Assembly: GCA_017480195.1 (NCBI GenBank) | Contig: JAFVBE010000014.1 | Coordinates: 1 to 64,000 of the forward strand | Direction of reading: 5' to 3' | DNA length: 64,000 nt | Origin: Lachnospiraceae bacterium | GTDB lineage: Bacteria; Bacillota; Clostridia; Lachnospirales; Lachnospiraceae | In this document: positions 32,576-42,301 of the stretch, piece by piece | Position numbering within the stretch: position 1 is the stretch's first letter | Layout of the letters: each line of letters begins with the position of its first letter | Notes under the pieces: model-generated | Database searches by the model: none | Seen by the model: only the letters and a program-made list of their open reading frames with translations | What the model was told of the DNA's origin: nothing | Made by a program: the position numbers and the translations under genes

Positions 32576-33034
32576 CTACTCCTCATCACGAAACTTCTCA
32601 AGTGCCTTATTAATCTTAGCCTCGTCAATCTTGCTCATCCAGAGTGACGAAATCCATACAAACGCATATACAACGAAAAATATAATCACAACCGAGATAT
32701 ATCCCGATAGCTCTGTATACCATTTGAATATATATCCTGCGGCTGATACGATTATAAAAAGTGACAGGCAGTGAAGTATAATCCTCAATACACCGCTTCT
32801 TCCACCCTCAACTTCTTCAAGCAGCAAGGTAGGCAATGAACACAAAAATCCTATAAATATAATTGATAATGGAGTATACCAGTCAAGACTATAGCTGCTT
32901 CCCTGAATATGCGTTATCACACCACCTATACCCACCATGAAAAATATACCTGTGGTTATCTGAAGTGTCTGCTCAAATATCAGCTTGATTTTTTCTTTTC
33001 TGTTATCATCACGATTATTATTATCCTGTACCAT
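32576..33034 (-). CDS. DUF3021 family membrane protein
   Basis: 152 residues, four hydrophobic helices (for example TTGIFFMVGIGGVITHIQG and LSGYISVVIIFFVVYAFVW), ending in a charged helix. DUF3021 proteins are regularly encoded directly after a LytTR regulator, as here (1-bp gap), and are thought to modulate it from the membrane. The signal is unknown. Confidence 0.85.
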   Translation of the reverse strand: MVQDNNNRDDNRKEKIKLIFEQTLQITTGIFFMVGIGGVITHIQGSSYSLDWYTPLSIIFIGFLCSLPTLLLEEVEGGRSGVLRIILHCLSLFIIVSAAGYIFKWYTELSGYISVVIIFFVVYAFVWISSLWMSKIDEAKINKALEKFRDEE

Positions 33035-33035
33035 A

Positions 33036-33470
33036 TTATATTCCCAGCCTTTTCTTCAAATCCTTCACATAGCTTCTTGCTATAACAACAGCCTCATCAT
33101 TCAGAAGTCCGGCATTCATTCTGCCGTTTATATCAGACTTTACGGATTTAATCTTCCTGATATTTACAATCATTGCCTTCGCACAACGAAGAAAATTCAT
33201 ATTAAGCAAGTTTTCAAGCTCATATAGCTTATATTTCGTCTCATAGCAATTATCCTTCGTATATATAAATGTCTTCTTATCGACAGACTCTATGTAATAT
33301 ATATTACCGATATTAAGCATATAGGTCTGTTCGTCCTTTGTTACTGCTATTCTGCCTGTGCCGCTCTCCAGAAGATTAATCGCCGCCTGTATCTCGTCGG
33401 TCTTTTCAACGGCTCTTATAACAGCCTTTTCATCATCCTTTGAAGCAGCCTGCTCGTAAATAACCTGCAT
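33036..33470 (-). CDS. LytTR-domain transcriptional regulator
   Basis: 144 residues: a short N-terminal region followed by a LytTR DNA-binding domain (about residues 40-140; YYIESVDKKTFIYTKDNCYE, NFLRCAKAMIVNIRKIKSV, VIARSYVKDLKKRLG). No receiver domain, so it is likely controlled by the DUF3021 partner. Probable targets are its own operon and the ABC exporter downstream. Confidence 0.9.
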   Translation of the reverse strand: MQVIYEQAASKDDEKAVIRAVEKTDEIQAAINLLESGTGRIAVTKDEQTYMLNIGNIYYIESVDKKTFIYTKDNCYETKYKLYELENLLNMNFLRCAKAMIVNIRKIKSVKSDINGRMNAGLLNDEAVVIARSYVKDLKKRLGI

Positions 33471-34179: not shown

Positions 34180-35226
34180 TTAAACTGAAATATCCTTTAA
34201 CACATCTCCGATATCCCCATCTATACATATAGCGCGTTCTGAAATCACCTCAGGGACAAATGCCTCTCCGTAATTGATGCAGGCATAAACAGCGTTAGGA
34301 TTAGCGGCTGTCATCTGCCAGAACGGATATTTAATAATGACAGGTGTATTCGCACCTACACCAAGTTCAAGATATAACACATGCTTATCCTCATGCTCTC
34401 TTAAGAAATTTGCATATCGTGACGAGGCAAGCTTCCAGCCCTCGTCCTCAACAAATGTGTCATCAACACGAAGATTCATCGTCATATTACTTCCGTCATC
34501 AGGGCATTTCGGTATAAGCTCTGATGGAATTTCCATCTTAAGCTTTTTATCAGCAGGCACATCAAATATACCATTCTCATCCCTTACAAAGCCCTGTGCT
34601 TCCATCGCCTTCATAACCCATTCTTCATTGTCATAGGTCTTCTTAAGCTTAGGGTTGACACTCTGGAACAGTCCGTAATCCCCCTGTGTATAAAACAATC
34701 TTTTCTTATCAAAGCCTGATCTTTGGAACTGATGGTCAACATTTGTAGTTATTACAAAATAATCCTTTTTCGGTGTACTTGCCAAGTCATCGGTTTTTCT
34801 CCCATCCACCAGTTCATAAAGCCTTTTATATACCGGCTTCGGCGCATCTATATATCTGTTAAAATAAATATGTCTTGACCACCACGCCCAAAGCGTCTCA
34901 TCATCAGGGAACGGATAAAATCCTCCCGAATACATATCATGTATGCCAAACCTCTCGGCAAAGTCAAAAAAATACTTTTCAAACCGCTCTCCACTATAGG
35001 TAAATCCCGCAGAAGTGGAAAGCCCTGCTCCTGCACCTATTATAACAGCATCTGCCGTTTCTATCTCATTTTTTAATCTCCTTATATTTTCCTCATGTGA
35101 GCCTGTCTCACTTATTATCCTATATCTCACAGCATCAAGTCCTTTCTGTATTGTATCCCTATATCCATCTCTTTTTTTATTTAAGTAATCCTTCGTAATA
35201 GAATTTGTCTTCGTCTTTGAAAACAT
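34180..35226 (-). CDS. Class M sirtuin (SirTM), probable protein ADP-ribosyltransferase
   Basis: 348 residues, longer than deacetylase sirtuins. The NAD-binding GAGAGLSTSAGF is kept, but the second motif reads TTNVDHQFQRSGF and the usual catalytic His position is Gln in YTQGDYGLFQ. These are the traits of SirTM enzymes, which ADP-ribosylate lipoyl-carrier GcvH-L in staphylococci and streptococci and are reversed by a linked zinc macrodomain. The macrodomain gene is upstream and overlaps by 50 bp. Neither gcvH-L nor lplA is nearby, so the target here may differ. AAAGGGTG precedes the ATG. Confidence 0.85.
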   Translation of the reverse strand: MFSKTKTNSITKDYLNKKRDGYRDTIQKGLDAVRYRIISETGSHEENIRRLKNEIETADAVIIGAGAGLSTSAGFTYSGERFEKYFFDFAERFGIHDMYSGGFYPFPDDETLWAWWSRHIYFNRYIDAPKPVYKRLYELVDGRKTDDLASTPKKDYFVITTNVDHQFQRSGFDKKRLFYTQGDYGLFQSVNPKLKKTYDNEEWVMKAMEAQGFVRDENGIFDVPADKKLKMEIPSELIPKCPDDGSNMTMNLRVDDTFVEDEGWKLASSRYANFLREHEDKHVLYLELGVGANTPVIIKYPFWQMTAANPNAVYACINYGEAFVPEVISERAICIDGDIGDVLKDISV

Positions 35227-36013
35227 TGAATATCACCCTTTCCATACTGCCCTCATGCTCCGACAGCCATTTTGTTACCGTATCAACCGCAATCTTGGCT
35301 GCACGCTCATTCGGGAAATGAAATACGCCCGTAGATATACAGCAGAACGCCACACTTTTAATGTCATTCTCAAGGCAGATATTAAGTGTATTTTTATAGC
35401 AGTCAGATAAGTCCTTCGCAAGTCCTTTGGTAAGTCCTCCCATTACTATCGGTCCTACTATATGAATAACCTTTTTCGCAGGCAGATTATATCCATCCGT
35501 AAGCATCGGCACAGCCGTCGGCTGTTCATAGTCCATACCGTATTTTGTTCTGAAGTTATTCATCTGCCTGTTGCACTCTGCACGAAGCTCTATACCCGCA
35601 TATGTATGTATGCAGTTGTCTATACATGTGTGCATCGGTACGAAACAGCCAAGCATCTGACTGTTCGCAGCATTGACGATTGCATCTACATCAAGTCTTG
35701 TAATATCTCCCTGCCATATCGACAACTTATCTGCCTGATTTTTATTGCTTCCGTATTCCTCTGCCACAGTCTTTATATCCTTAAGTTCTACTATACCCTT
35801 CTCTATCGCTGCTTCCTTAAGATACTCATCCTGTATCGCAAGTATTTCATCATCCATCGCACGAGGCATGCGTATATTCATAAGAGAACGCAAAATCCTC
35901 TTTTTTTCAAATATATTGTCCGAAACCTTCAAGTCCCTATACTCGCCTGAATCTTCCTTGAACCTGTCTACGAGGTAATTTAGTCTTTCTTCCTGTGTCA
36001 TAAGTTTTGTCAT
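35177..36013 (-). CDS. Zinc-dependent macrodomain protein, ADP-ribosyl hydrolase
   Basis: 278 residues from the ATG behind GGGAGAG. An N-terminal helical extension of about 80 residues leads into a macrodomain: WQGDITRLDVDAIVNAANSQ, the Zn-macro motif GCFVPMHTCIDNCIH with Cys/His metal ligands, and FCCISTGVFHFPNERAA. It matches the SirTM-linked Zn-macro group that removes ADP-ribose from proteins. It is co-expressed with the SirTM gene. A candidate HxlR-type site lies about 110 bp upstream at 36120-36140. Confidence 0.9.
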   Translation of the reverse strand: MTKLMTQEERLNYLVDRFKEDSGEYRDLKVSDNIFEKKRILRSLMNIRMPRAMDDEILAIQDEYLKEAAIEKGIVELKDIKTVAEEYGSNKNQADKLSIWQGDITRLDVDAIVNAANSQMLGCFVPMHTCIDNCIHTYAGIELRAECNRQMNNFRTKYGMDYEQPTAVPMLTDGYNLPAKKVIHIVGPIVMGGLTKGLAKDLSDCYKNTLNICLENDIKSVAFCCISTGVFHFPNERAAKIAVDTVTKWLSEHEGSMERVIFNVFKDEDKFYYEGLLK

Positions 36014-36119
36014 ATTATACTCTCCCATCACAAATTGGTATTTAAAAATCATAATCTTTACCTAAACTATAATTTCCGTTTCAACTATATATGAAGTATA
36101 ACAAAAGGATTTTTTGAAA

Positions 36120-36140
36120 CAAGTACGCACTTTTTTATTA
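36120..36140. promoter_or_regulatory. Candidate HxlR-type operator upstream of the macrodomain-SirTM operon
   Basis: CAAGTACGCACTTTTTTATTA. Its CAAGTACGCAC-(C)-TTTTT part is shared with 38590-38613 in front of the ACGX operon. HxlR-family sites are typically GTAC-centred dyads, which fits the GTAC here. Confidence 0.5.
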
Positions 36141-36166
36141 GATAGTTACCTTTAGGTAATTTATAA

Positions 36167-37126
36167 TTACATTCTCACAACTATCTTACCATTAACAGCC
36201 CCCTTATCTTGCGCGGTTATGGCATCCTTTATATTATCAAATTCAAACACCTTTCCGTATATAGGAACAAGCTTTTTATCATTGAAAAAATTAAACATAT
36301 CATCAACCACTTCCTGCGTAGGATAGTTCGAGAAAAATCCTGTCAGATAAACACCGTTTGGAATATCCTTTATGGGATCAAATCCATCAAGTGCATACAC
36401 CCCGCCAAGTATACCCGTCTGGCAGACTATACCGCCTTTATTCACAGCAGTCATAGTATCCTTGAGATACTTTGGACCAACAAGGTCAAGTGCTTTTGTT
36501 ACACCATTTATTCTCCCGGTCAATTTACCATCATCCAATATTATCTCATCCGCATCTTTGATTAGATGGAATTTATCGTCTTTATGTGTTGTAGCAATCA
36601 CACATGAGCCAAGTGCCTTTGCTATCTGTATGGCAGCATACCCAAGTGCACATGTTGCACCGCGAATAAGCAATGTATCCTCTGCCGTAAGATTAAGACA
36701 TTCAAAGAGCGAGCCCCATGCCGTAAAATATGTCTCAGGTATAGCAGCAAGCTCCTCCCAATTAAGCCCACTTTCTATCTTAAATACATGATGTGCAGGA
36801 AGTAAGGCATATTCTGCATAGCTTCCGTTAAAGCTTCTTCCCATACCACCCATCATAGCTATAACCTTATCTCCTTTAGTAAATCCTGTATCTGACGGCT
36901 CCTCTATCACTCCCACACATTCGATACCGGGTATGACAGGCTTTTGTATGTAATCTGCATTTATCTCATTTAATCTAAGTATCTGCTCGGAATGGTTCAT
37001 ACCAAATGCCTTGACCTTTACAAGAACCCAACCGTATTTAACCTTAGGTATCGGCAGCTTGGATATTTCGATATTCTCTGCAGATGTTATTTTATCTATT
37101 GATATCGCTTTCATTTTTTTATCCAT
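36167..37126 (-). CDS. Zinc-free medium-chain dehydrogenase, quinone-oxidoreductase type
   Basis: 319 residues. MDR fold: GroES-like N-terminal domain (GIECVGVIEEPS, GDKVIAMMGG), then a nucleotide-binding domain (LLIRGATCALGYAAIQIAKALG, consistent with NADPH). The structural zinc cysteines are absent, so it fits the quinone oxidoreductase/zeta-crystallin group that reduces enones or quinones. It starts 31 bp after the radical SAM gene on the same strand and is probably in the ACGX operon. Confidence 0.85.
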   Translation of the reverse strand: MDKKMKAISIDKITSAENIEISKLPIPKVKYGWVLVKVKAFGMNHSEQILRLNEINADYIQKPVIPGIECVGVIEEPSDTGFTKGDKVIAMMGGMGRSFNGSYAEYALLPAHHVFKIESGLNWEELAAIPETYFTAWGSLFECLNLTAEDTLLIRGATCALGYAAIQIAKALGSCVIATTHKDDKFHLIKDADEIILDDGKLTGRINGVTKALDLVGPKYLKDTMTAVNKGGIVCQTGILGGVYALDGFDPIKDIPNGVYLTGFFSNYPTQEVVDDMFNFFNDKKLVPIYGKVFEFDNIKDAITAQDKGAVNGKIVVRM

Positions 37127-37157
37127 CTCATATATACCTCACATCATATACTAATTA

Positions 37158-38213
37158 TTATACTAATTCAAACAGTTCTCCATTTTCATCTGCCCAGCAC
37201 GCCGGATCGTCAGCATAGAAATCTCCGTATGTTCCCTTTGCAACTGCCGGACATCCTCTGCACCATGCAAGCAGTTTACAGCGTGAACACTTGCTGAATT
37301 TCTCATACTCACGATAATTCTCCATACTCGTTATCCATACATCTGCAAGCCTGTCCTCAAATACATTTCCTACTTTACTTTCAGCAACTCTGCGGCAGGC
37401 GTACACCTCACCTGTAGGAAGTATGGTAAGATGGCAATTGCCACAGTTACATCCTCCGTATATCATGCCCTTTTCGGCATCTTCAGGGATTTCAAATTCA
37501 CCTATTTCATATTCATACAGAGTCCACAGGTGATCCTTTTTATTAAAGTAAGTCTCGCACCCCTCTGCCTCATACTCTTTAAATTTCTTATCACATATAG
37601 CAAGCAGCTCCCTATATTCGGATGCTGTCATGCTCGAATCAAGCTCACCGCCGCTTGGTACATATCTTGAAAATGCAAATATCTTTGCACCTGCTTTTAC
37701 CACCTCGTCTATAATCCCCGGCACTTCCATACGATTATCCTTTGATACCGTAGTCATGATAACGCTCTTTATGCCTGCACGATTGATACATCCAATCTTC
37801 TCCAATGTACAGTCAAATGAGCCCGGTTTCCTGAACCAGTCATGTGTCTTGTGAAGACCATCTAATGAGAGCTGATATTTCTCGCAGCCGTACCATTTCA
37901 GTTCCTTACATACATTATCATTTAGATGAAACGGATTGCCAAGTATCGTAAACGGTATATCATGTTCGTGCAATAATCCAAGCAGTCTCCAAAAATCAGG
38001 ATGCAGTATCGGATCACCACCCGTTATATAAAAATAAGGGCTGCGGCCATACACCTCACAAAAGTCAAGACAGTTGTAAAATGTATCCTCCATCTGCTCC
38101 CAGTTCATCGACTCAAGGCAGGTGTGCTCTCCTGATGAATATATATAACAATGCTTACATCTTTGGTCGCACTCATCTGTAATATGCCATTGAAAAGAAA
38201 AATAAGGTTTCAT
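37158..38213 (-). CDS. Radical SAM/SPASM maturase, ACGX system
   Basis: 351 residues from the ATG behind GGAGG. The radical SAM [4Fe-4S] motif is CDQRCKHC near residue 19, with YITGGDPIL as the SAM-binding GGE-like loop. A C-terminal SPASM region supplies cysteines for auxiliary clusters (GGCNCGNC, VYACRR, KCSRCKLLAWCRGC, DPACW). It matches what I remember as the radical SAM/SPASM partner of ACGX-repeat peptides. It should modify the Cys-rich repeats of the small protein encoded 107 bp upstream; the chemistry is not known to me. Confidence 0.9.
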   Translation of the reverse strand: MKPYFSFQWHITDECDQRCKHCYIYSSGEHTCLESMNWEQMEDTFYNCLDFCEVYGRSPYFYITGGDPILHPDFWRLLGLLHEHDIPFTILGNPFHLNDNVCKELKWYGCEKYQLSLDGLHKTHDWFRKPGSFDCTLEKIGCINRAGIKSVIMTTVSKDNRMEVPGIIDEVVKAGAKIFAFSRYVPSGGELDSSMTASEYRELLAICDKKFKEYEAEGCETYFNKKDHLWTLYEYEIGEFEIPEDAEKGMIYGGCNCGNCHLTILPTGEVYACRRVAESKVGNVFEDRLADVWITSMENYREYEKFSKCSRCKLLAWCRGCPAVAKGTYGDFYADDPACWADENGELFELV

Positions 38214-38268
38214 AATATTAACCTCCACATATATATAAACAGCTTTCACTGATTATCTCATTAGTATT

Positions 38269-38312
38269 GTTACGGGGGTGCGTCACATGGACACACCCTT
38301 TATCACCGTAAC
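38269..38312 (-). promoter_or_regulatory. Hairpin between the precursor and maturase genes
   Basis: GTTACGG pairs with CCGTAAC at the ends of this segment, and GGGTG with CACCC inside. There is no strong T-run. Partial termination or RNA processing here would give more precursor than enzyme, as is usual for RiPP operons. Confidence 0.55.
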
Positions 38313-38320
38313 AAATAATT

Positions 38321-38506
38321 CTACTTGTCGCCCGCTCCACATGCACTTCCACATGCTGCTGATGCATAAACCTTCTTGTCGCCTGCTCCGCACGCACTTC
38401 CGCATGCTGCTGATGCATAAGTCTTCTTGTCGCCTGCTCCGCATGCTGTTCCACAAGCTGAAGAAGCCTTACCCTGTGCCCATCCTGCAATGTTTGCTAA
38501 TGCCAT
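38321..38506 (-). CDS. ACGX-repeat RiPP precursor peptide
   Basis: 61 residues from the ATG behind GGAGG. A short leader (MALANIAGWAQGKA) is followed by three repeats of about 17 residues, each with two ACG motifs (for example YASAACGSACGAGDKK), six in total as ACGT, ACGA, ACGS, ACGA, ACGS, ACGA. The DNA repeats with a period of 51 bp. Ala/Cys/Gly/Lys-rich composition and adjacency to a SPASM enzyme identify a ribosomally made, post-translationally modified peptide. No transporter or protease gene is adjacent, so the product may act inside the cell. Confidence 0.88.
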   Translation of the reverse strand: MALANIAGWAQGKASSACGTACGAGDKKTYASAACGSACGAGDKKVYASAACGSACGAGDK

Positions 38507-38589
38507 TTTATGTACCTCCAATTATTATTCAGAAAACTTATTAAATGTGTTTCCTGTATAATCCATTTTACATATAAAAAAGATGCATA

Positions 38590-38613
38590 CAAGTACGCAC
38601 CTTTTTGTAAGTA
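38590..38613. promoter_or_regulatory. Candidate HxlR-type operator upstream of the ACGX operon
   Basis: CAAGTACGCACC, then TTTTTGTAAGTA. A GTAC-centred dyad (GCATACAAGTACGC) begins just to the left. It lies about 90-105 bp upstream of the precursor start. The same core is found at 36120-36140. Confidence 0.5.
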
Positions 38614-38685
38614 TTGATTTTAATATATAAAAAATAATTATTACAAAGAAAATACAAATATAAACAGAAGAATATTCGTGACATA

Positions 38686-38714
38686 TTGACAGATTATATA
38701 TAACATAATATAAT
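38686..38714 (+). promoter_or_regulatory. Consensus promoter of the HxlR gene
   Basis: TTGACA (38686-38691), 17-bp spacer, TATAAT (38709-38714): a perfect sigma-A promoter, about 110 bp before the regulator start codon. Confidence 0.8.
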
Positions 38715-38823
38715 TTCACCATAACATTCAATTTAGAACATTACATCCCTTATCGAATGTAATATCAATTTATGCAACTAATTGAATTTAAAGCTGTAAA
38801 TAAAAGCTAAAAAGGAGTCTAAT

Positions 38824-39147
38824 ATGAAGAAAAAAGAAGAATTACCGGAATGTCCGGTAGCAACTACAGTTTCACTTATTGGAAGTAAATGGAAATTATT
38901 AATTATAAGAAATCTTCTGAACCGTCCCTGGAGATTTAATGAATTACATAAATCACTTGAAGGCATAAGTCAGAAGGTCTTAACCGAGAGCCTTCGCTCT
39001 ATGGAAGCAGACGGCATAGTTACACGAACTGTATATGCCGAGGTTCCACCACGCGTGGAATACGCTCTAAGTGAGTTAGGCGAGTCATTAAGACCAATTA
39101 TCAACTCAATGGCAGACTGGGGAAACGAATACAAGAATAATCTTTAA
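38824..39147 (+). CDS. HxlR-family winged-helix regulator
   Basis: 107 residues. HxlR core: VATTVSLIGSKWKLLIIRNL, LHKSLEGISQKVLTESLR, and the wing RVEYALSELGESLRPII. A single conserved N-terminal Cys (Cys 10, in PECPVATT) corresponds to the redox- or electrophile-sensing Cys of YodB/HypR-type members. It is divergent from the ACGX operon and the natural candidate for its control. AAAGGAG precedes the ATG. Confidence 0.9.
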   Translation: MKKKEELPECPVATTVSLIGSKWKLLIIRNLLNRPWRFNELHKSLEGISQKVLTESLRSMEADGIVTRTVYAEVPPRVEYALSELGESLRPIINSMADWGNEYKNNL

Positions 39148-39167: not shown

Positions 39168-41318
39168 CTAATTATTATCATATTCCTTGCCGAATTTCTC
39201 CGCAATCGCTCTAACCTCATCCTCCGCATCCAAAAAAGCTTTGGCAACATTCGGATCAAAGTGCGTTCCAACGCCCTCCCGTATTATATCCATAGCCTTT
39301 TCAAATGGGAATCCCTTCTTATAGCTTCGGTTAGAAACCAGTGCATCAAATACATCGGCTACAGCCATTATTCGTGCGGATAGAGGGATTTCCTCGCCTA
39401 CAAGACCCTTCGGATATCCCGAGCCATCCCATTTCTCATGGTGATATGTCGCAAGATTTTTAGCCTCGTTTAAGTAACCCGTATCAGGCACTATCTCAAT
39501 AGCCTTGTCTATAATATCCTCACCGGCTGTAGTGTGCTTTTTCATCTCAACGAATTCTTCATCTGTAAGTCTTCCCGGTTTATTTAAGATAACATCAGAT
39601 ACCTTTATCTTGCCTATATCGTGAAGTGGCGCTGAATGCTCTACATCCGATATGAATTCATCGGTAAGCTGGTCAGCATATATTCCCTCTTCCTTCATCT
39701 TATTCATAATAATCTTAGCATAAGCAGCCGTCTTTCTGACATGGTCACCCGTACATTTATCTCGGCTCTCCACGAGATCGGCAAGAACCATGATAAGTCC
39801 ATTCTGCATCTTGGATATAGCCTCAGTCTGTTCCTGAATATCAGCAACATATTTCACGCTATCCTCAGAGGTCTTAACCAATGCGTAATAAAGATTTTCA
39901 ATCTCATCGCCTGTGTGTATATCAAGCTCACGTATCCTGTCCACACTCTCGGTTCGCGCCTCATCACTGTTATATGCAAATGAGCTTGCACTGAGCGCCA
40001 TAGTATTTACAGGATAGATAATATTAAACTCAGCCAGCCAAAGACCTACGGTAAGTACAAATATGAAAAATCCGAGGAACAAAGCTATAAGCTTAGCAAA
40101 AAAGCTGTGCTGATTCTCCCTTAGCTGATCCATGGATATATCAATAGCCGCATAACATTGACACACTCCATTGCTGTCATATACCGGCTGATAGACGGTT
40201 AAAAGCCATCCATATGTTTCATCAGATATAATAGGTTCAATCGCCTCTCCTGCCAGAAGCGCCGGCAGATACTCCGAAAATGCTTCGTCAAACTCTACTA
40301 TATCACCGGGCTCTGAGCCTTCCAAATCCGCCGTATCAAGATCAAATACGACATGACAGCCATCCTCCATTATCTTATATACATATATGTATTCTATATC
40401 ATACGAGCTGTCTTTTATATTATACAAGCGCTGCTCTGTGTACAAATATCCGTCCGCAGCCTCTCCAAGCTCGATATATTCATCCACACGGTCAGCATCA
40501 ATAACACTCCCAGCAAGATAAGCAACTCCCTCACCCAGCTTAATATGGTCCTCTATAGTAGAATTACGATAGAGAATAAAGCTTATGACTGTAGAAGCAG
40601 CAGCTATAAGAAAGCAGGCACTCATAAGCAGAAGCAATATCTTTGTACGCACAGACATGGTACGGCTTTCAGTCTTTCTTGCGGCAGCTCTTGCTTCTTT
40701 GGAAAGCGGAGTCTGCTTCCATCCGTCTATTCTAAGCTTATCCTTGACCTTATCCGGTACAAGCTGCAACACAATAATCAGAATAATAACTGTTACTGCC
40801 TTATCTGCCATATCAATCATAAAATCCGCCAGAAGTTGTGCCTGAAATCTGTTAAAGGTTCCATTATTATACAGATAATTAACCACAGGAACCGATATAC
40901 CCTCACCCGCAAATCCATATAAAAACCATGTAATTATGGCACTGATTACACCGCCAATAAGTGAAAGTGTGATTACATATGCAAAAATCATATAAAGCTT
41001 TTTCATATATCCTTTTTGAACAAAAAAGGCTGTAATTACTGCTATAAGCACATTTATAAAACCATAATATATTGATGCACTATCGGATATAACTGCCTTA
41101 ATTATATTTGATAGAAGTCCTACGGTAACACCCGGCAGATATCCGCCGAGGCCGGCAGTTAAGACAGTGCCTACAGTATCTAAGAACATCGGAAGATGAA
41201 GAATATCGGCAAGCTCTGCACCACCCATATTAATCAGAATACCTGCCACGCACATCACAAGCATCCACAGCAGCTTCGAGCACTTATTTGATTTATTTTT
41301 GTAATTCTTTGTTTCCAT
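39168..41318 (-). CDS. Membrane sensor HD-GYP phosphodiesterase
   Basis: 716 residues from the ATG behind GAAAGAGG. The N-terminal 180 residues form a multi-helix membrane module resembling ECF-transporter S components (MFLDTVGTVLTAGLGGYLPG). A second membrane pair encloses a Cache-like extracytoplasmic domain (about residues 250-420), then a HAMP-like segment and the HD-GYP domain (HVRKTAAYAK, LHDIGKIKVSD, YHHEKWDGSGYPKGLVGEE, DVFDALVSNRSYK). It should degrade c-di-GMP when a ligand is sensed. 26 bp downstream of the lipid kinase gene. Confidence 0.92.
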   Translation of the reverse strand: METKNYKNKSNKCSKLLWMLVMCVAGILINMGGAELADILHLPMFLDTVGTVLTAGLGGYLPGVTVGLLSNIIKAVISDSASIYYGFINVLIAVITAFFVQKGYMKKLYMIFAYVITLSLIGGVISAIITWFLYGFAGEGISVPVVNYLYNNGTFNRFQAQLLADFMIDMADKAVTVIILIIVLQLVPDKVKDKLRIDGWKQTPLSKEARAAARKTESRTMSVRTKILLLLMSACFLIAAASTVISFILYRNSTIEDHIKLGEGVAYLAGSVIDADRVDEYIELGEAADGYLYTEQRLYNIKDSSYDIEYIYVYKIMEDGCHVVFDLDTADLEGSEPGDIVEFDEAFSEYLPALLAGEAIEPIISDETYGWLLTVYQPVYDSNGVCQCYAAIDISMDQLRENQHSFFAKLIALFLGFFIFVLTVGLWLAEFNIIYPVNTMALSASSFAYNSDEARTESVDRIRELDIHTGDEIENLYYALVKTSEDSVKYVADIQEQTEAISKMQNGLIMVLADLVESRDKCTGDHVRKTAAYAKIIMNKMKEEGIYADQLTDEFISDVEHSAPLHDIGKIKVSDVILNKPGRLTDEEFVEMKKHTTAGEDIIDKAIEIVPDTGYLNEAKNLATYHHEKWDGSGYPKGLVGEEIPLSARIMAVADVFDALVSNRSYKKGFPFEKAMDIIREGVGTHFDPNVAKAFLDAEDEVRAIAEKFGKEYDNN

Positions 41319-41344
41319 AAATACCTCTTTCTTTTGTCCTATAC

Positions 41345-42301
41345 TCAACATTTCATATTCAATATATTACTCAGACACTCTATAGTAACCTTTGTCTCAT
41401 CCCCTACATATTCGCCATCCGAATGTAAAACTGACGGTTCTTTAACTTTGATGATAGCCTTCTTAGCGTCTAAAAGTCTGAATCCTTTTATCTTTTCCTG
41501 TTTAGCCATAACGAGTAACGGAAGCTTCGTAAACGCACTTATCTTAGATATATCGGAAGCAATACAAATCGAAAGCTTTCCGTCATCATAGGAAGCATCC
41601 GGTGCCATAGGCACTCCGCCGCCTTCTGCCCTCACATTCATAAATGCTGCAAATATCATCTTTTTAAGCCTCAATGTCTCTGATAAATTATCTTCCTCAT
41701 CATATATATCTATCTCAGTGTCAATATAATCCATAGTAAAGAGACTTATAACGGTTAAGATTAGATATGTAAGTGACCCAAGTCCGACTTTATTAAGAAC
41801 ATTCTTTATCTTTGAAGTAAGAGCCTTCTTACACACTATCGCATCAAGTCCGATACCGCTGCTGATACCAAATAACCTTTTTTCATCGTCTAATGTTATC
41901 TGACCTATATCAATTTTCTTATATGGCTTACCTGACAGGACTATATCAAGAGCTTTTACAGGATCCTTCGGAAGGCTTAAACCTCGCGCAAAATCATTCG
42001 CAGAACCGGAAGGTATCACGCCAAATATCACTTTTTCGAAATCATTAATTCCATTCAGGCAGGCATTTATGGTACCGTCGCCACCGACAACAATTATATG
42101 AATATTTTCCTCATTAAGCTTTGACAGCTTATAGGCGAGATTTTTAGCATGCTCCGCACTCTCTGTCTTAAATGCTTTATAATCTATATCTCTTGCATTT
42201 AATTCCTGCTTTATCCTATGCCATATCTTTTTAACTCTGCCGCTACCGCCACTCATATTGACGATAAAATAATATTTATTATTCACTATACGAATCTCCA
42301 T
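41345..42301 (-). CDS. Diacylglycerol/lipid kinase family protein (YegS-like)
   Basis: 318 residues. The ATP-binding VVGGDGTINACLNG is near residue 73, the GVIPSGSANDFARGL substrate loop follows, and the C-terminal beta-sandwich ends with PSVLHSDGEYVGDE. It phosphorylates diacylglycerol or a related lipid using ATP at the membrane face. No strong ribosome site is visible before the ATG. Confidence 0.9.
   Translation of the reverse strand: MEIRIVNNKYYFIVNMSGGSGRVKKIWHRIKQELNARDIDYKAFKTESAEHAKNLAYKLSKLNEENIHIIVVGGDGTINACLNGINDFEKVIFGVIPSGSANDFARGLSLPKDPVKALDIVLSGKPYKKIDIGQITLDDEKRLFGISSGIGLDAIVCKKALTSKIKNVLNKVGLGSLTYLILTVISLFTMDYIDTEIDIYDEEDNLSETLRLKKMIFAAFMNVRAEGGGVPMAPDASYDDGKLSICIASDISKISAFTKLPLLVMAKQEKIKGFRLLDAKKAIIKVKEPSVLHSDGEYVGDETKVTIECLSNILNMKC

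Follow-up and report, generated by a model that had tools for sequence, protein, structure and literature searches.

An ACGX-repeat locus and its surroundings

The DNA analysed here, a 64,000-nucleotide stretch from a Lachnospiraceae bacterium (assembly GCA_017480195.1, contig JAFVBE010000014.1, positions 1 to 64,000; hereafter the window), carries a locus for a candidate ribosomally synthesized and post-translationally modified peptide (RiPP) with ACGX repeats, together with its radical SAM/SPASM maturase, a redox enzyme and an HxlR-family regulator. The precursor (38321..38506, minus strand) has 61 residues, six ACG motifs and three CGxxCGxxD units; 107 bp separate its stop from the ATG (38213) of the 351-residue maturase (37158..38213, minus strand), and a further 31 bp lie between the maturase stop (37158) and the start (37126) of a quinone-oxidoreductase-like medium-chain dehydrogenase/reductase (MDR; 36167..37126, minus strand), which matches no NCBIfam model at cut-off. 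The HxlR-family (DUF24) gene, with an N-terminal CPV motif, is divergent from the precursor (38824..39147, plus strand). An earlier note on this DNA had described these four genes, the repeat count and both gaps exactly as they are found here. Its assignment of precursor and maturase to the ACGX family was borne out by profile search, the precursor scoring 37.2 bits against TIGR04341 (target_ACGX; cut-off 28) and the maturase 583.8 bits against TIGR04340 (rSAM_ACGX; cut-off 400), with both the Radical_SAM and the SPASM domain of the latter above cut-off. Since both of these adjacent genes encode proteins that pass the NCBIfam cut-offs, the pair is already known by name; the window's own genome (84.7% complete) holds one copy of the locus.

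The earlier note was right about the four genes, but the locus extends beyond the coordinates that it gave. Downstream of the MDR gene and on the same strand lies a further pair (34180-36013), a Zn-macrodomain (35177..36013, minus strand) and a 348-residue SirTM-type sirtuin (34180..35226, minus strand), and an operator-like element precedes both the ACGX precursor (TACAAAAAGGTGCGTACTT, 38591..38609, minus strand) and, with an upstream dyad, the macrodomain gene (36121..36160, minus strand). The element, its second copy, the repeated occurrence of the Zn-macrodomain/SirTM pair next to ACGX and the CX3D/E spacing in the precursors had all gone unremarked.

Conservation of the precursor and its maturase

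We collected 105 maturase loci, 16 of them from 145 relatives, the best 80 of 199 in species genomes, and nine from the wider phylum (nine above cut-off among 398 genomes); the set contains the window twice (L002 and L102), some near-copies and some fragmentary loci at the ends of contigs. An ACG-repeat frame on the same strand lies upstream of the maturase in 99 of these loci by one filter and in 98 by another, so the pairing is not due to chance and the earlier note's expectation that the frame would be conserved holds. In six of the second filter's seven misses the locus ends within ~310 bp of the maturase, and the seventh, L017 of genome G051, is a genuine one. Three ACGX loci (L022, L036 and L039), with maturases 84-89% identical to the window's, sit in bins labelled Succinivibrio, Prevotella and Spirochaetales, reflecting either misbinned contigs or transfer.

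The repeats follow a strict pattern. In 90 distinct precursors (excluding the partly masked L009 and the window's copy, and including a few with mis-set starts), most of which have a leader of the MALSNLxGW type, 556 cysteines were counted; Ala precedes 541, Gly follows 552, and the residue at +4 is Asp in 305 cases, Glu in 39 and Cys in 195. The precursor caller required two [AS]CG per peptide; with the first two cysteines of each peptide excluded, the figures are 368 of 376 for the preceding Ala, 372 of 376 for the following Gly and 364 of 376 for Asp, Glu or Cys at +4. Where the cysteine is part of a CX3C, Asp or Glu stands at +8 in 203 of 211 cases, and the last motif of the precursor is CGxxCGxx[D/E] in 75 of 90, so that the precursors do carry a CX3D/E motif. 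At 15 loci whose maturases share 51-81% identity with that of the window, the +4 position is still D/E (52) or C (40) for 92 of 96 cysteines, whereas Lys at +5 is kept for just 33. Repeat number, by contrast, changes fast: the peptides of L026, L030 and L028 have 6, 8 and 10 cysteines despite maturases that are 97.7-99.4% identical, which suits a dosage-type function.

This pattern is what a ranthipeptide would display, with a Cys-Asp or Cys-Glu thioether closing each CGxxD/E as in PapA/PapB and the first cysteine of CGxxCGxxD left as a free, reactive thiol. Such chemistry, which would be a variant inside the explanation that we prefer below, is possible, and we hold it tentatively. The maturase's best solved relative is SkfB (6EFN), and 5WGG, which we take to be CteB, was also matched. 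PapB links both CX3D and CX3E (PMC9413430, in excerpt), in line with the acid or cysteine at +4, the acid at +8 and the loss of Lys at +5 in divergent loci. However, the maturase scores only 58.8 bits against the PapB model NF047865 (cut-off 340) and thus falls outside that family, and the repeats evolve together, so their conservation is partly a matter of duplication. Among 36 aligned maturases C19, C22, C255, C273, C309, C312, C318, C321, C339 and the pair R274-R275 are unchanged; C15 is not invariant, because L101 has Arg there.

An alternative is that the maturase forms SbtM-like thiooxazoles from the ACG cysteines, yielding a chelator of copper or of some other soft metal that works like a cytosolic bufferin. 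Apart from ACGX itself, the named family to which the maturase comes nearest is SbtM (TIGR04082; 161.9 bits, with the family behind it at 112.9), and with Ala before and Gly after them nearly all cysteines share one local context; SbtM forms a thiooxazole with loss of four H according to a review (PMC11002830, in the portion seen), and bufferins sequester copper through Cys thiooxazoles (PMC12452194, in excerpt). The SbtM score is nevertheless far below the cut-off of 350, which places the maturase outside that family too, the conserved acid at +4 or +8 would not be needed for thiooxazoles, the divergent regulator is of the thiol-sensor type, and in the operon runs at the 20 divergent loci described below we noticed neither a metal regulator nor a transporter. 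We regard a metal buffer as unlikely.

A recurrent redox neighbourhood

Neighbourhoods were counted at species-genome loci, of which 47 of 80 have at least 5.5 kb downstream and 65 have at least 1.3 kb upstream. All 47 encode a redox enzyme downstream of ACGX, namely an MDR (31 loci), a PNPOx-ferredoxin protein (24), a nitroreductase (15) or a ferredoxin-nitroreductase (9), and a divergent HxlR gene is present in 62 of the 65; among 20 more divergent loci a redox gene follows in 19. The association with an oxidoreductase and a cysteine-bearing HxlR regulator, from which the earlier note had argued, is therefore conserved. Within the same 5.5 kb a SirTM gene occurs at 27 loci and a macrodomain gene at 24 on the same strand and one on the opposite strand, so that 29 of 47 have one or the other; in the 20 divergent loci this holds for 11, with L231 and L232 having the gene upstream on the other strand. 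The recurrent order is HxlR, operator, ACGX, maturase, then nitroreductase, MDR or FMN (flavin mononucleotide)-ferredoxin genes and often Macro-SirTM.

The constant presence of a redox enzyme, with several reductase families alternating in one slot, would also be expected if the modified repeats acted as an electron shuttle serving nitroreductase, MDR and FMN/ferredoxin proteins, much as mycofactocin serves its dehydrogenases. A dedicated peptide redox cofactor is nonetheless quite unlikely, as the partners vary between loci, counter to one dedicated acceptor, and one relative, G019, has an MDR in the same slot without ACGX.

Downstream same-strand runs in the 20 divergent loci consist of redox, macrodomain and SirTM families, in some cases with a DUF1848-like gene, and are followed by unrelated genes. 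Neither an exporter nor a peptidase was noticed there on the basis of phmmer classes, with 27 unclassified open reading frames (ORFs) judged by eye without a family scan, which agrees with what the earlier note had reported for the genes next to the window's pair. A Cys-rich precursor beside a radical SAM/SPASM maturase would ordinarily call to mind a sactipeptide- or ranthipeptide-type product that is exported as a bacteriocin or a signal; here, redox genes and HxlR recur in place of an exporter or peptidase and the short repeats vary in copy number, and this reading is highly improbable. An anti-phage function was considered and rejected; PADLOC returned viperin-like matches for the maturase (49.2 and 27.6 bits) and a marginal match for the macrodomain (17.3 bits).

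Several other features accompany these loci. DUF1848 proteins recur beside HxlR, SirTM and macrodomain genes with and without ACGX (Pfam-confirmed at L240:1422-2351 and L243:6034-6969; by sequence likeness at L224:1038-1967, L228:4489-5457 and L238:7508-8449), and at L249:6799-7692 (G086) a DUF5131 protein is encoded between SirTM and the macrodomain. In the window, a LytTR regulator and a DUF3021 protein (32576-33470) are encoded downstream of SirTM, and an HD-domain protein with a 5TMR-like N-terminal match (39168-41351) adjoins HxlR; G013 has a similar pair and, at its ACGX locus, a similar ORF. The mRNA between precursor and maturase folds into a stem-loop (38267..38314, minus strand; -31.9 kcal/mol, z -3.26, with 117 nucleotides folded) that possibly sets the ratio of the two products.

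An operator-like element and its candidate regulator

Eighty of 90 distinct promoters carry the element AYAAAAARGTGCGTACTT upstream of the precursor with at most two mismatches, against none of 1800 Markov controls. In those 80 promoters, a GTTAC/GTAAC dyad with at most three mismatches is present in 74 (control 259/1600), in 67 of them 22-23 nucleotides upstream (control 20/1600 at that position), and a -10-like box lies 24-25 nucleotides from the A of ACTT, likewise in 74 of 80 (control 81/1600). In the window the dyad is clear at the Macro-SirTM site, whereas none is clear at the ACGX site. The window's genome contains exactly two sites without mismatch, one before ACGX (38591-38609) and the other before Macro-SirTM (36121-36139); its remaining 13 sites have three mismatches each, compared with 7 for the reversed control.

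Across 140 relatives, 34 sites with at most one mismatch were found in 27 genomes (reversed control 7). Of 30 element loci that were read, 19 have an HxlR gene, and downstream of the site lies an ACGX precursor in 10 and a macrodomain or SirTM gene in six; one site precedes an MDR gene, and others a cupin (by Pfam) or genes named by eye. A second HxlR locus of G013 (L246:3263-5257), apart from that genome's ACGX locus, comprises the element, an unnamed ORF, a nitroreductase and an FMN reductase. In L248, from a relative that lacks ACGX, no ACG-repeat ORF of at least 20 residues lies between the operator and SirTM.

The window's HxlR protein has a single cysteine, C10, as the earlier note's cysteine-bearing regulator implied, and aligns at the CPV cysteine with YybR (4A5M), presumably HypR, one of the DUF24/HxlR thiol sensors. 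The motif CP[VIL] is found in 76 of 83 HxlR hits, the other seven having mis-set or cut N-termini by eye, so the N-terminal cysteine is a conserved feature and, judged by sequence, the protein looks like a thiol-sensing repressor. A formaldehyde-sensing HxlR was rejected as a model, as that regulator carries Cys11 and Lys13 (PMC7835342, in excerpt), whereas the window protein has no Lys at +2 of its cysteine. Most probably this HxlR subfamily uses the element as its operator, with HxlR as the putative binding protein, and the element most probably identifies a redox regulon with ACGX among its outputs.

A Zn-macrodomain and a class M sirtuin

The macrodomain matches the protein-ADP-ribose hydrolase model NF003163 (293.8 bits; cut-off 272), and an additional in-frame ATG lies upstream at 36052. 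Alignment to its best solved match, 8RSI, places NAAN at residues 114-117 and CFVPMHTC at 123-130, the latter conforming to the Cx4HxC zinc motif of Zn-Macros (PMC11490716, in excerpt); with its N-terminal extension and a SirTM next door, the protein has the features of that group. The sirtuin has no Pfam or NCBIfam match at E 0.001. Its best solved relatives are SpySirTM (5A3A; E 3.4e-47) and the fusion 8RSN, a third match being marginal, and its N162, Q181 and R253 align with N118, Q137 (which replaces the catalytic His) and R192, the residues that mark SirTM (PMC4518038, in excerpt; 5A3A chain numbering is that of the paper plus 10). It also carries GVGANTP, an instance of GVGx[NT]TP, and thus has the hallmarks of a class M sirtuin. 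By analogy with characterised relatives, the pair is predicted to remove and add ADP-ribose.

SirTM is present in 13 of the 15 relatives with ACGX and in 29 of the 125 without (Fisher p 2.3e-6, ignoring relatedness; the set is taken to be the 140 relatives of the element scan). According to a 2024 paper (PMC11490716, in excerpt), SirTM has a single known target, GcvH-L, and what other SirTM/Zn-Macro systems act on is elusive. Neither GcvH-L nor LplA was found in the 84.7%-complete window genome, so the locus is not an extended SirTM operon with GcvH-L and lipoate ligase. Full-length GcvH, the family to which GcvH-L belongs, is absent from 15 of 16 ACGX genomes, several of them incomplete, and LplA (TIGR00545, the lipoate enzyme that was searched for) from 15 of 16; G046, G073, G077 and G117 have short GcvH matches only (20-27 bits, three above the low cut-off). 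The single genome with full-length GcvH and LplA, G051, is also the one without an ACGX precursor found.

These observations raise the prospect that the matured ACGX peptide is a redox carrier replacing lipoyl-GcvH-L in clostridial SirTM systems, SirTM adding ADP-ribose, for example at the repeated Asp/Glu, and the Zn-macrodomain removing it, thereby switching the peptide's thiol/thioether buffer off and on. For this speaks, in addition to the absence of GcvH and lipoate ligase from 15 of 16 ACGX genomes, the SirTM tree (70 rows, 47 ACGX-linked and 23 unlinked, three of the latter from ACGX-positive genomes), on which ACGX and SirTM appear to have come together repeatedly: there are 14 label changes, at least 9 of them forced by well-supported branches, against a shuffled mean of 19.6. 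The same tree shows, however, that ACGX-linked SirTMs are not one clade, though with some clustering, and if ACGX were its only substrate, SirTM would be expected to vanish wherever ACGX is missing. Yet relatives do keep it, which weakens this reading: a contiguous stretch of G019 (88% complete) reads HxlR, operator, MDR, operator, Macro, SirTM, neither ACGX nor maturase lying in the slot between the first operator and MDR, and G007 has operator, Macro and SirTM without ACGX. The idea was therefore demoted from the main explanation, and taken as a whole is decidedly unlikely. If true, it would give SirTM a target outside the lipoyl system and provide a RiPP under reversible ADP-ribosylation. 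The G019 SirTM frame (L240:5165-6175) is broken by one stop.

A candidate thiol-stress regulon

On balance, we lean towards reading the unit as a thiol/electrophile-stress regulon that makes an intracellular, modified, multi-Cys peptide. The gene families, the conservation of the element, its position before both operons and the recurrent gene association are what can be read from the DNA itself. From these, we envisage that an HxlR-family repressor with a reactive N-terminal cysteine occupies the GTTAC..GTAAC / AAAAARGTGCGTACTT operator that overlaps the promoter and would be released by thiol modification; the ACGX precursor, maturase and reductases would then be made, along with the Zn-macrodomain/SirTM pair, which would remove and add ADP-ribose as its relatives do. 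The maturase would modify the cysteines of the ACG repeats, with Cys-Asp/Glu thioethers and thiooxazoles as competing predictions for the chemistry, and the product, kept in the cell, may use its multiple sulfur sites to trap electrophiles or oxidants, or may partner the operon's reductases in redox reactions. What the setting suggests is a peptide that serves the cell internally under redox stress, not an antibiotic. The earlier note's proposal of an intracellular metal- or electrophile-handling role is thus retained for its electrophile and redox part, metal handling being, as above, the unlikely part.

Several observations weigh against this regulon. Ten of the 90 ACGX promoters are without the element at two mismatches, 18 of the 47 loci have no macrodomain or SirTM hit within 5.5 kb, a divergent HxlR gene is present in only 10 of the 20 divergent loci, and L234, of G051, has neither a precursor nor a recognised redox partner. 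The nearest NCBIfam regulator models, RrpB and RrpA, are below their cut-offs. Moreover, G019 and G007 retain the element with Macro-SirTM in the absence of ACGX, and as the element also precedes other genes, shared control would indicate a stress regulon and not a shared pathway.

Comparison with known systems

With PapA/PapB (PMC9413430, in excerpt), the system shares CX3D/CX3E repeats and a SPASM maturase, but it differs in a maturase that scores below the PapB model, in its extra CX3C cysteines and in its redox regulon. SbtM, a thio(seleno)oxazole maturase (PMC11002830, in the portion seen), is the closest other named radical SAM family. Bufferins (PMC12452194, in excerpt) are likewise Cys-rich modified peptides, made with MNIO enzymes and Sec signals, neither of which was noticed, or searched for, at the ACGX locus.

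In the literature within reach, which excluded subscription papers, no study of the ACGX family was found; among the matches listed for ACGX and both TIGR accessions none was on the family by title, ACGX in two bacterial papers among them being a genome accession, and no ACGX-SirTM link appeared among the matches listed around SirTM, macrodomain, RiPP, radical SAM, nitroreductase and HxlR. A close parallel is the extended SirTM operon of S. aureus and S. pyogenes (PMC4518038 and PMC11490716, both in excerpt), which also joins SirTM and a Zn-macrodomain with oxidoreductases in a redox-stress setting, but where it has GcvH-L and LplA the present locus has a radical SAM RiPP pair and HxlR. The ACGX peptide, adjacent and apparently co-regulated in genomes mostly without full-length GcvH or lipoate ligase, is a concrete candidate SirTM partner. 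As for the NCBIfam ACGX system itself, with its precursor directly upstream of the maturase, the pair had been named already and is known here by model names and scores; new are the element, the HxlR regulon and the recurrent link to SirTM/Zn-Macro, which give a named but, as far as searched, unstudied family a regulatory setting in which its role is now testable.

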